Part shown: one piece after another, positions 16,573 to 61,984 of the stretch
How positions within the stretch are numbered: position 1 is the stretch's first letter
How the letters are laid out: each line of letters starts with the position of its first letter
From: Haloplanus aerogenes
GTDB taxonomy: Archaea; Halobacteriota; Halobacteria; Halobacteriales; Haloferacaceae
Direction of reading: 5' to 3'
DNA length: 64,000 bases
Assembly (NCBI RefSeq): GCF_003856835.1
Contig: NZ_CP034145.1
Location: forward strand, 744,001-808,000
Made by a program: the position numbers and the translations under genes
The notes under the pieces: model-generated
What the model saw: the letters and a program-made list of their open reading frames with translations, nothing else
What the model was told of the DNA's origin: nothing
Database searches by the model: none

Positions 16573-17343
16573 ATGACGACCCAGCCATCCGTCGTGATCG
16601 TCGGCGGCGGCGTCGCCGGCCTGTCGGCGGCCACGTTCGCCGCTCGTGCCGACTTCGAGACGCGCGTTCTGAACAGAGAGGGACGAAGTCCCTCTGGCAG
16701 CCGGACGCAGTCCGGCGACGCGGGTGACTCCATCCTCCGTCGCAACGCCCATCTGGAGAACTACCCCGGCTTCCCCGCCGGCGTCAACGCCCGCCTGTTG
16801 CTCGATATGATGGCCGAGGGCGCGGACCGGGCGGGCGCCGACCGCCGCGAGGCCGAGGTGACGCGGGTCGCCCGCGATGGCGACGAGTTCGCCGTCGAAA
16901 CCGCCGCTGGCGAGGAGTACCGGGCCGACTACGTGATCGCCGCGACGAAGAACGCGGTCGACTACCTGCCCGCGGATGTCGAACTCGTCGACCGCGGGAA
17001 GTCGTTCGTGGTGACGGACGAACGCGGACGGACGGCCGTCGAGGGCCTGTACGCAGCCGGTCGCCTCGCCGGCAAACCGCATCAGGCCGTCGTGAGCGCC
17101 GGCCACGGGGCGGAGGTGGCGGTGACGATGCTAGAGGACGCCGACCACCCCTTCTACCACGACTGGGTGGCGCCCGACGGCTACTTCACCGACCGCGGCC
17201 GGGACCTGCCACCGGGGTGTGAGGAAATCGACGACACGGAACGGCGGGCGCGCGAAGACACGGCCCGGGAGACGATGCGCGAGCGGTTCGCGGCGCCACA
17301 TCCCTCCGACCAGCCGACGCATCCGAGCCTCGACGACGCCTGA
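16573..17343 (+). CDS. FAD-dependent oxidoreductase, thioredoxin-reductase-like
   Basis: The 256-residue protein starts with the dinucleotide-binding motif 'VVIVGGGVAGLSAATFAAR' and shows 'ILRRNAHLENYPGFP', 'YVIAATKN' and the terminal FAD site 'VEGLYAAGRLAGKPHQ' with the following helix. No redox-active CxxC is present, so it is not a true thioredoxin reductase; a flavin oxidoreductase on a small substrate is more likely. Codons 34-48 are a recent insertion (16672-16716) made of two palindromes. The frame stays open and the rest is intact, so the protein may still fold. Confidence 0.85.
   Translation: MTTQPSVVIVGGGVAGLSAATFAARADFETRVLNREGRSPSGSRTQSGDAGDSILRRNAHLENYPGFPAGVNARLLLDMMAEGADRAGADRREAEVTRVARDGDEFAVETAAGEEYRADYVIAATKNAVDYLPADVELVDRGKSFVVTDERGRTAVEGLYAAGRLAGKPHQAVVSAGHGAEVAVTMLEDADHPFYHDWVAPDGYFTDRGRDLPPGCEEIDDTERRAREDTARETMRERFAAPHPSDQPTHPSLDDA
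16672..16716 (+). repeat. 45-bp in-frame insertion of two tandem hairpins inside a gene
   Basis: Bases 16677-16695 form a perfect hairpin AGAGGGAC-GAA-GTCCCTCT. Bases 16700-16716 form a second, GCCGGAC-GCA-GTCCGGC. Each has a 3-nt loop and a GAC...GTC core. The 15 codons (encoding NREGRSPSGSRTQSG) interrupt a strand-turn of the FAD-binding domain, between the conserved VL and the DAG that precedes the SILRRN motif. It is multiple-of-3 long and stop-free, resembling in concept the palindromic repeats that insert into Rickettsia genes. Confidence 0.75.
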
Positions 17344-48331: not shown

Positions 48332-48433
48332 ACGACGCCCCCAGATACCGGGCGCGTCGCGGCCCGACGCCCCCCCGGGAGACGCGGTCGATCCGGACCG
48401 CTTGTGGCGGTCCGTCCGAGGCACCCCATCGCC

Positions 48434-48544
48434 GCCACCGGATCACGTCCGGTGGCACGAGGAACGTCGTTCCTCGCTGAGCCGCGACGCACGTGCCGTC
48501 CGTCGCGGGCGTCGTCCCCCTGTACACCGCGAGTGCGGTGTACA
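48434..48544 (+). repeat. Cluster of three perfect hairpins
   Basis: Three stem-loops occur in the GC-rich gap after the enolase gene: GCCACCGGA-TCACG-TCCGGTGGC (48434-48456), CGAGGAAC-GTC-GTTCCTCG (48458-48476) and TGTACACCGC-GAGT-GCGGTGTACA (48521-48544). All stems are perfect with loops of 3-5 nt. The first two are separated by one base, the same spacing idea as the tandem pair inserted in the gene at 16672. The first could end transcription; the whole looks like a palindromic repeat element. Otherwise 48332-48580 holds no gene. Confidence 0.65.
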
Positions 48545-60000: not shown

Positions 60001-60826
60001 CCGCGTTCCCGACGACGTGAGCCTGCCCGGCACCGACGACGACGAGGTGGAACCGGTCGAAGTGCTGGTCCAACTGGCGGAGGACGGCGAAATCGACCCG
60101 TGGGACATCGACATCGTCGACGTGACCGACGCGTTCCTCGACCGCCTCGACGAGACGGACCTCCGCACGTCGGGGCGGGCGCTCTTCTACGCGAGCGTGC
60201 TCCTGCGGATGAAAAGCGACGTGCTCCTCGACGACGGCCCGGACGAACCGGAACCGGAGCCGTGGGAGGTGGCGATGGAGGGTGGCGATCCGGATGCGAT
60301 GGCGAACGGGCACGACCCCATCGACGCGCTGGACGCCGAACTCGACCGGCGGCTGGACCGGAAACACGCCCGGGGGTCGCCGGAGACGCTGGACGAGTTG
60401 GTTCGGGAACTCCGCGAGGCCGAGCGCGACTCGTGGTGGAAGGAGTCGCGGTCGTACGACACCTCGCGGTCGCCCAAGGGGTACGACCGCGGGACACAGA
60501 CCCTCGACTACCACGCCGCGGACGACTTCCGCGAGGGCGGTGAACCGACCGAGGGCGACGTGACGGGCACCACCCACACCGAGGACATCGAGACGACTAT
60601 CGACGCGGTGCGGGAGACGGTGCGCACCCACTACGACGCCGGGCGCGCAGAGGTGCTGTTCGCGGAGGTGCGCGAGTCGGGCGGCGCGCCGGTCGACACG
60701 TTCCTCGCCCTGCTTTTTCTGGCCCACCGCGGCGAAATCAAACTCCGACAGGACGACCTGTTCGGGGATCTGTGGATTCGTGATCCGTCGGCGCCGACGG
60801 TCGGCGACGAAGCGGTGGCAGATTGA
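59993..60826 (+). CDS. scpA: Condensin kleisin subunit ScpA
   Basis: ScpA is the kleisin that bridges the two SMC heads. The 277-residue protein has the typical N-terminal start 'EPVEVLVQLAEDGEIDPWDIDIVDV', 'DLRTSGRALFYASVLLRMKSDVLL' and a C-terminal winged-helix region ('VDTFLALLFLAHRGEIKLRQDDLFGDLWI'-type, residues ~235-265). No scpB gene follows; in its place is a 79-bp tandem repeat. The last codons 'GDEAVAD' and the stop form part of the first repeat unit, so the 3' end is shared with the repeats. Confidence 0.93.
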   Translation: MTDRVPDDVSLPGTDDDEVEPVEVLVQLAEDGEIDPWDIDIVDVTDAFLDRLDETDLRTSGRALFYASVLLRMKSDVLLDDGPDEPEPEPWEVAMEGGDPDAMANGHDPIDALDAELDRRLDRKHARGSPETLDELVRELREAERDSWWKESRSYDTSRSPKGYDRGTQTLDYHAADDFREGGEPTEGDVTGTTHTEDIETTIDAVRETVRTHYDAGRAEVLFAEVRESGGAPVDTFLALLFLAHRGEIKLRQDDLFGDLWIRDPSAPTVGDEAVAD

Positions 60827-60985
60827 GGCCGTCTCGCAACTCGCGAGACGGCCGAGGAGACCCACCGGTTCGTCGTCGTTGGGCGACGAAGCCGTGGCAG
60901 ATTGAGGGTGCCTCGCAACTCGCGAGACGGCCGAGGAGACCCCCCGGTTCGGCGTCGTTGGGCGACGAAGCCGTGGCGGATTGAG
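60803..60985 (+). repeat. 79-bp tandem repeat spanning the 3' end of scpA
   Basis: The sequence GGCGACGAAG-C-GTGGC-GATTGAG starts at 60803, 60882 and 60961, exactly 79 bp apart each time; the third copy is cut short near 60985. Each copy contains the last codons of scpA and its stop (GDEAVAD, then TGA). The first unit also holds an 11-bp perfect hairpin, GGCCGTCTCGC-AACTC-GCGAGACGGCC (60827-60853), starting at the base after the TGA. This stem is a good candidate for a transcription terminator. The second unit repeats the stem with small changes. Confidence 0.85.
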
Positions 60986-61006
60986 TCCGTTTCGCGAACC
61001 GCGCCC

Positions 61007-61984
61007 TCAGCCGAGGATTCCCAGTATCCACCGGAGGACTTCGGAGCCGGCGAACAGCGCCCCTTCCGGGCGTGAGAGTTGCCGTTTCGTCCAGAGGGCG
61101 GCCACCATCAGCACGGTGACGACCGCCAGCCACGCCAGTGTCTCCAGCGCCGTCCCGCTCACGGCGAGCGGTCGGACGAGCGCTGCGACGCCCAGGATTC
61201 CCGTGATGTTGTAGACGTTGCTCCCGACGACGTTGCCAACGGAGACGCCGAGGCTGCCCTGGCGGATCGCCACCAGCGAGACGGCGAACTCCGGCGTGGA
61301 GGTTCCGGCGGCGACGATGGTGCCGCCGATGACCCACTCCGAGATACCCGCGTCCCGTGCCAGTTCGGACGCCGCGAGCACCATGTAGTCGCCGCTGACG
61401 AGCACTATCGCCAGCCCACCGACGAGGAGGGCGGCGTCCCGGCCGTAGAATCGCACTCGCTCCGTAACCGTCGTTGTCACCGCATCCGCTGCGGACGGGT
61501 CGCTCGTCGACGCAGGCGATGGGGACTGTGAGCTCCGAAGCAGGTACGCGGTGTAGACGACGAACAGGCCCGCGATGATGCCGCCTTCCAGCCGACTGAC
61601 GGTCAGATCTGCGAGGACGAGGCCGGCGACGACCGTACTCGCGAGCAGTGCTGCCCCGTCCCGGTGAACCAGTGACTCGGCGATGGGAATCACCCTGATC
61701 AGCGAGATGATCCCGAGGATGAACGCCAGGTTGTAGATGTTCGACCCGAGGACGTTGGCGACGGCGATATCACCGAGCCCTTTCAGCGTGGCATCGACGG
61801 AGACGGCGAGTTCCGGCGTCGACGTGCCCATCGCCACGATAGTGAGTCCGATCGTGAGATCGGAGAGGCCGAACCGTCTGGCGAGTCGCACGACTGCGTC
61901 GACTAGGGCGCGAGCACCGATCCACAGTCCCAGAATCGTCGCTACGATTACGCCGAGCTGGACGGCTGGGCCGCCCTGTACCAT
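61007..61984 (-). CDS. Calcium/sodium antiporter (CaCA family)
   Basis: The 325-residue protein has ten helices in two halves with the duplicated alpha repeats of this exchanger family: 'TIVAMGTSTPELAVSVDATL' with 'ANVLGSNIYNLAFILG', and 'TIVAAGTSTPEFAVSLVAIR' with 'GNVVGSNVYNITGILG'. The two G-T-S-x-P-E motifs bind the transported cation. A cytoplasmic loop lies between the halves. The start MVQGG at 61984 is preferred. It exports calcium or swaps it for sodium at the membrane. Confidence 0.93.
   Translation of the reverse strand: MVQGGPAVQLGVIVATILGLWIGARALVDAVVRLARRFGLSDLTIGLTIVAMGTSTPELAVSVDATLKGLGDIAVANVLGSNIYNLAFILGIISLIRVIPIAESLVHRDGAALLASTVVAGLVLADLTVSRLEGGIIAGLFVVYTAYLLRSSQSPSPASTSDPSAADAVTTTVTERVRFYGRDAALLVGGLAIVLVSGDYMVLAASELARDAGISEWVIGGTIVAAGTSTPEFAVSLVAIRQGSLGVSVGNVVGSNVYNITGILGVAALVRPLAVSGTALETLAWLAVVTVLMVAALWTKRQLSRPEGALFAGSEVLRWILGILG

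Follow-up and report, generated by a model that had tools for sequence, protein, structure and literature searches.

Forty-five-nucleotide double-hairpin units in frame within haloarchaeal genes, probably a non-autonomous mobile element

A 45-nt insert in a flavoprotein gene belonged to a family of two-hairpin units found across haloarchaeal genomes, and comparison of filled with empty orthologous sites showed that, as far as sequence can tell, one unit architecture has entered unrelated genes in front of GAC, recently and repeatedly. We consider it probable that the 45-nt unit is a mobile element of the non-autonomous type, one that is recognised through its shape and kept where its acidic reading frame is tolerated. 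The window comprised the whole stretch of DNA analysed (64,000 nt); its features, and one from elsewhere in the same genome, were as follows.

16573..17343, + strand: host gene, a thioredoxin-reductase-like flavoprotein of 256 aa (Pfam Pyr_redox_2)
16672..16716, + strand: complete double-hairpin unit of 45 nt, an in-frame insert encoding NREGRSPSGSRTQSG
16677..16695, + strand: hairpin A, AGAGGGAC gaa GTCCCTCT, with an 8-bp stem and a 3-nt loop
16696..16699, + strand: linker GGCA, conserved across the alignment of units
16700..16716, + strand: hairpin B, GCCGGAC gca GTCCGGC, with a 7-bp stem and a 3-nt loop
16717..16719, + strand: GAC (Asp), a native codon and the presumed target, with Asp here in most orthologues
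48432..48481, - strand: possible second unit in the window, weak (28 bits), in a context without clear coding
C1:690210-690650 of the same genome (L064, ~210-650), - strand: tnpA (Y1_Tnp) with an antisense unit of 15 residues near its N-terminus

Read directly, the insert consisted of AACAG, hairpin A, GGCA and hairpin B, with both stems perfect; this confirmed the earlier note, which had described two perfect palindromes within 45 bp that keep the reading frame. Its minimum-energy fold was exactly these two hairpins whether computed for DNA (-15.3 kcal/mol, z -5.1) or for RNA (-24.9 kcal/mol, z -4.8), and 0 of 200 shuffles folded as well in either case. A 50-mer covering the insert occurred once in the window. 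The 15 codons were read in frame within the open reading frame, from which we infer that the insert is translated, and PDB relatives of the host protein were thioredoxin reductases. Of the 148 family genomes, 125 contained a homologue of the host. Exactly the 15 residues between VL and D were absent from all 33 orthologues in which the site could be read, including congeners (up to ~82% identity) and other genera, among them those named Natronorubrum and Halolamina. The insertion point proposed earlier was thus borne out, and distant genera carried no such residues; their presence there was to have marked a native origin. In the AlphaFold2 model (mean pLDDT 81.9) residues 38-59 formed coil with pLDDT below 50, following a strand at residues 30-34. 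Because orthologues lack the segment and the model places low-pLDDT coil there, the 15-residue insert is, on comparative grounds, acquired, and it probably forms a flexible loop, which would separate the second Rossmann strand from the Asp that came next in the uninterrupted protein. The "surface loop" of the earlier note agrees with this predicted coil, which bears on it indirectly.

A listing of adjacent hairpin pairs gave the unit as GACAG-[8 bp]-GGCA-[7 bp], 45 nt long and followed by GACAG, with tandem copies at a 45-nt period. BLAST against the genome of origin found further sites matching parts of the unit with different stems, and a pattern combining the exact linkers with the stem pair recovered only the query because stems vary. 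In sampled genome stretches, perfect hairpins with 3-nt loops and stems of at least 7 bp numbered 157, compared to 71-124 for other loop sizes, and 70-odd adjacent pairs of short hairpins were found against 35-43 in order-3 Markov sequence; as Markov sequence yields many chance pairs, pairs were counted as real only when stems reached at least 7 bp and the common linkers were present. A covariance model, R1, was built from an alignment of 10 units with differing stems, in which 98.7% of cells were paired, partly by construction as the units had been picked as hairpins, and 34 cells carried double changes. The insert, itself a training member, scored 67.1 bits (E 3.9e-18, own genome). A better check came from 81 R1 matches in other genomes: 97.2% of their cells were paired and 131 showed double changes, where slid controls reached 29-45% and 2-6 cells. 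Some bias is left, since these matches were both found by and aligned to R1. Overall, 97-99% of pairs formed in units and 26-45% in slid controls. Stem bases vary together with their partners while the linkers GACAG and GGCA stay, and the search of the genome for the same pair of stems, suggested earlier, recovered a family whose recurring part is the architecture with its linkers, the stems themselves covarying. A second unit class, DSEASETPRATGEAGD, with hairpins of 9 bp and 5-7 bp, was also in frame and ~45 nt long; it was poorly covered by R1 and occurred at C1:3063165, 394540 and 1373028 of the same genome and at L191 (Mre11 of G106).

R1 gave 67 matches in the genome of origin at E<=0.1, 52 of them of at least 28 bits, corresponding to ~50 copies. 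Within the family 146 of 148 genomes were positive at E<=0.01, and at E<=1e-6 the order (haloarchaea) yielded matches in 28 of the 33 genomes sampled, compared to 1 of 164 others of the phylum, with R1 E-values to be taken as rough. The single genome outside the order (G293, same phylum, other family) had three matches, the best at E 2e-7, in an assembly that was 84% complete in 170 contigs, for which contamination, transfer or chance are all possible. When 72,556 plasmids were searched by BLAST with a typical unit, nine haloarchaeal records matched (Natrinema, Halocatena, Salinigranum, Natronococcus, Halolamina, two Haloarcula, Halorussus and DL31), along with one Rhodococcus record at chance level. 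In viral contigs the strict pattern had 0 matches, and a looser pattern found 15 stretches, one of them scoring 27.6 bits, as a weak unit would, and the others marginally or not at all; matches to phage records were at chance level only, and Rfam had no match to the unit. Elsewhere in the window, a 79-nt direct repeat stood in three adjacent copies at 60792-61028, two of them 89% alike with GTCTCGCAACTCGCGAGACGG palindromes. In G013, multi-hairpin arrays at L268, L270 and L272 (~1384-1675 in each) formed three copies 89-94% identical over ~290 nt; lying beside different genes and apparently non-coding, they may represent a larger vehicle by which these hairpins are carried.

Clean empty orthologous sites were found in about 20 genes. 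For units of the genome of origin these concerned Mre11, photolyase, EndoIII-type glycosylase, HisG-like, KptA, PhzF, MutS, GcvT-like, RdgB/Ham1 and MOSC-like proteins, the linker of Kae1-Bud32 and one further protein whose kind is not recognised; Pfam backed nine of these host names, and the remainder are presumptive names of our own. Filled and empty sites often differed by exactly 45 nt, and the added segments, 45 nt in length and in some cases 48 or longer, stood directly before GAC. Among 14 non-kinase units of G106, 12 could be placed in its sister G046 (~90% flank identity), where 10 were absent, one was shared with a single loop change and one was altered. Because 10 of the 12 are missing at that flank identity, insertion is, by this comparison, recent. 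At the Mre11 site unit classes differed between species, and G074 had a unit with another sequence adjoining the one common to other species. Recent movement accounts for this turnover better than inheritance followed by loss. Hosts recognised by sequence motifs included MutL and enolase, and many hosts in the genome of origin and G106 were genes for DNA repair or the nucleotide pool (MutS, MutL, Mre11, EndoIII type, photolyase and RdgB).

The codon after the unit was GAC or GAT in 83 of 90 coding units and was present at most empty sites, while no clear consensus emerged on the 5' side. One unit lay antisense in an IS200-type tnpA, reading YHFVW-CRQSEIDCLQISDLQ-CPKYRH, with AT-rich stems unlike those of other units. 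Here the GAC rule held on the unit's own strand even though GAC does not encode Asp in this gene, an argument for a preference for GAC at the DNA level. Strict target-site duplication was considered and found no support. Arrays of units at the N-box of histidine kinases (NSVEHG...DSVEHG) were a hot spot in nearly all genomes examined, for example at C1:2426478, 862801, 185823 and 194071 of the genome of origin. As the first hairpin arm of the unit equals the native N-box coding sequence, one unit type may have originated in a histidine kinase.

The earlier note had raised the matter of how many copies lie in frame; this held for nearly all members in the genome of origin, and elsewhere the same strand and codon phase (sense, phase 0) applied to 61 of the 66 units from other genomes and to 107 of the 134 from three congeners, with gene frames called heuristically from the open frame and third-position GC. 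Among the remainder were array members, start-shifted partial matches, non-coding copies and weak chance matches. In annotated plasmid genes, four units were sense and in the same phase by CDS coordinates, and a fifth plasmid unit lay opposite a short hypothetical ORF. In convincing coding context unit lengths were overwhelmingly 45, with 47, 49 and 53 among those in other contexts. Read in the preferred frame the unit gives the sole acidic peptide (net -1.5 per unit, GRAVY -1.66), its remaining frames encoding neutral or basic ones. Since GAC in host genes, counted on both strands, falls in sense phase 0 in just 41% of cases, targeting of GAC alone does not account for the frame bias, which also requires selection for a frame that is tolerated. 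An early idea that copies were almost absent outside genes was dropped, as non-coding copies were found in G013, G046 and G106, several of lengths that are no multiple of three; R1, trained on 45-nt units, under-counts non-coding copies of other lengths.

For a mobile element of this kind, we postulate that the mobilising enzyme would recognise the folded hairpins over their sequence, probably in single-stranded DNA. On the strand opposite to the peptide the unit has GTC as its last bases and a target GTC on its 5' side, and single-strand Y1/HUH elements (IS200/IS605, REP) likewise insert 3' of their target. Because the opposite strand of the unit follows this rule, a Y1/HUH-type enzyme acting in trans would be the first candidate. 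Within the mobile reading we hold an enzyme of that kind to be somewhat less likely than not. Known Y1 recognition hairpins vary far less than the stems of these units, and none of the three Y1_Tnp genes of the genome had flanking units, one of them carrying a unit internally. The one intact tnpA of this genome, the place examined for likeness to IS605 ends, had no unit-like hairpins beside it. Copies within genes would survive only when their length keeps the frame and the acidic, hydrophilic frame is read, and a surviving copy would add a flexible segment of 15 residues that a halophilic protein could tolerate.

Low change in some units raises the question whether they are instead functional modules under selection, as an mRNA or DNA hairpin or as a solubilising linker, with mobility secondary. 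Seven units common to G046 and G106 changed at 9 of 315 positions against 210 of 2051 in their flanks, their stems at 3 of 210 (Fisher p ~1e-6), and one unit was identical in three species. Such constancy suggests maintenance by selection or by copying from arm to arm, but the conserved pairs were detected through their fit to R1, which misses decayed units and biases the estimate, and decayed orthologues do exist at the HisG-like and MutS sites. With most units missing in close relatives and their hosts being unrelated enzymes, we regard a primarily functional origin as unlikely. Somewhat less likely still is an origin in place, in which template switching between short, imperfect repeats would create the palindromes with no transfer between genes. 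Fold-back copying of the nascent strand from arm to arm would keep arms equal, one arm resembles native sequence with repeated flanks in histidine kinases and Mre11 (NSVEHG, DAVD), and template switching has been proposed for the coding palindromes of nematomorphs (PMC6649704). The same linkers and spacing nevertheless recur in unrelated genes across several families of the order, and the stems are not found in the empty site of the flavoprotein, the GcvT-like protein and others; template switching may help to maintain stems or extend arrays. Very improbable is that the unit is kept out of the protein, by mRNA splicing or ribosome skipping. Stable hairpins with GAC at both ends do resemble bypassing elements, yet the flavoprotein unit starts with AAC while the next codon is GAC, the first codon was other than GAC in 44 of ~90 coding units, and removal requires neither the near-universal multiple-of-three length nor the preferred acidic frame, both of which were seen; ribosome bypassing and RNA splicing were rejected on this codon, length and frame evidence. 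That the hairpins at 16672-16716 arose by chance in a GC-rich native loop is negligible in view of the 33 orthologues without the insert, the shuffled folds and the genome-wide spread of the family.

Movement of a non-autonomous element thus stays the preferred reading, and we advance more tentatively its wider form, that of an undescribed mobile class across haloarchaea, recognised by two-hairpin shape, which would favour GAC and the acidic frame and act as an ongoing source of 15-residue segments. If this is true, the stems of a shape-recognised element drift by compensatory change while movement continues, and their covariation makes it testable whether a mobile element can be recognisable by structure alone. 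The suggestion that hairpin repeats seed new peptide segments here gained support from the in-frame family and the empty sites in about 20 genes. In-frame coding palindromes would then be no curiosity of Rickettsia, with an archaeal order holding dozens of very short, recent copies in each genome and with Mre11, MutS, photolyase, EndoIII-type glycosylase and the Kae1-Bud32 fusion among the core genes affected. The units would explain recurrent species-specific insertions in haloarchaeal proteins, above all the SVEHGST...DDSVEHG repeats in histidine kinases, and such insertions can mislead annotation, alignment and structure prediction.

A search of the open-access literature found no prior description of the 45-nt family, whose novelty is provisional. 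The earlier statement that such insertions are not commonly described in archaea was fair, though they are not unprecedented: coding palindromic repeats were reported from Methanocaldococcus jannaschii (Suyama 2005, as cited in PMC2996958 and PMC2229807). In those citing descriptions the repeats likewise are archaeal palindromes with coding potential fused into protein genes, but they belong to another archaeal lineage, and R1 was near-empty outside the order. PARCEL, a 25-residue amphipathic tandem repeat with none reported from archaea (PMC2996958), was rejected, the units here being 15-residue, acidic and mostly single. A MITE was rejected as there is no terminal inverted repeat; the likeness of the two termini (GAC...GAC) was incomplete and in many units lacking (115 of 162 letters against a shuffled mean of 104, p 0.002, with arrays inflating the result). 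A GTAG REP or REPtron, marked by a GTAG tag and by repeats on either side of a RAYT (Y1) gene, was likewise set aside, with units lacking the GTAG tag and the three Y1_Tnp genes lacking flanking units. Closer in host are the PATEs and the terminal-only IS605 remnants of Haloquadratum, transposase-free palindromes down to 52 bp without target duplication; PATE palindromes resemble IS605-type transposon ends, and the copies lie largely outside genes (PMC3119063). They share with the present units their character as transposase-free palindromic mobile repeats in haloarchaea, whereas the units are in frame and do not flank Y1 genes.

CGTC REPs (PMC3733652), among which RPE-4 and RPE-6 are counted, are 8-9 bp hairpins, often dimers, with no dedicated transposase, apparently listed there for bacteria only and with intragenic copies frequent in DNA repair genes, which are also frequent hosts here. 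Their tag, CGTC or TGTC 5' of the hairpin, would have at most a partial counterpart here, where TGTC/CGTC stands on the opposite strand before hairpin B and not hairpin A. In CGTC REPs, however, loops are 4-5 nt (here 3 nt), the tail is CCA (here TGCC) and AT pairs form the stem base, against CG/GC or GT-CA in stems that covary freely here; on loop size, stem base and tail the assignment was rejected. Nematomorph mitochondrial coding palindromes reach 284 bp, with both arms encoding conserved native protein (PMC6649704); they too are perfect inverted repeats within coding sequence whose arms remain complementary, but they form no inserted repeat family, unlike the units. Rickettsia palindromic elements (RPEs; Ogata et al. 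2000/2002) appear in PMC2229807, PMC3733652 and PMC6649704 among repeats of ~100-200 bp that carry a 12-bp inverted repeat at their termini; they reportedly lose their identity as repeats over time, and RPE-4 and RPE-6 are classed as shorter REPs. Against that description, the present unit is 45 nt, with two independent hairpins and ends that are not inverted, and membership of the Rickettsia RPEs proper was rejected. The likeness is that of short palindromes in frame in many conserved genes and also outside genes, with no known transposase, and as a kind the units are RPE-like: a repeated palindrome, in frame within conserved genes and absent from their orthologues.
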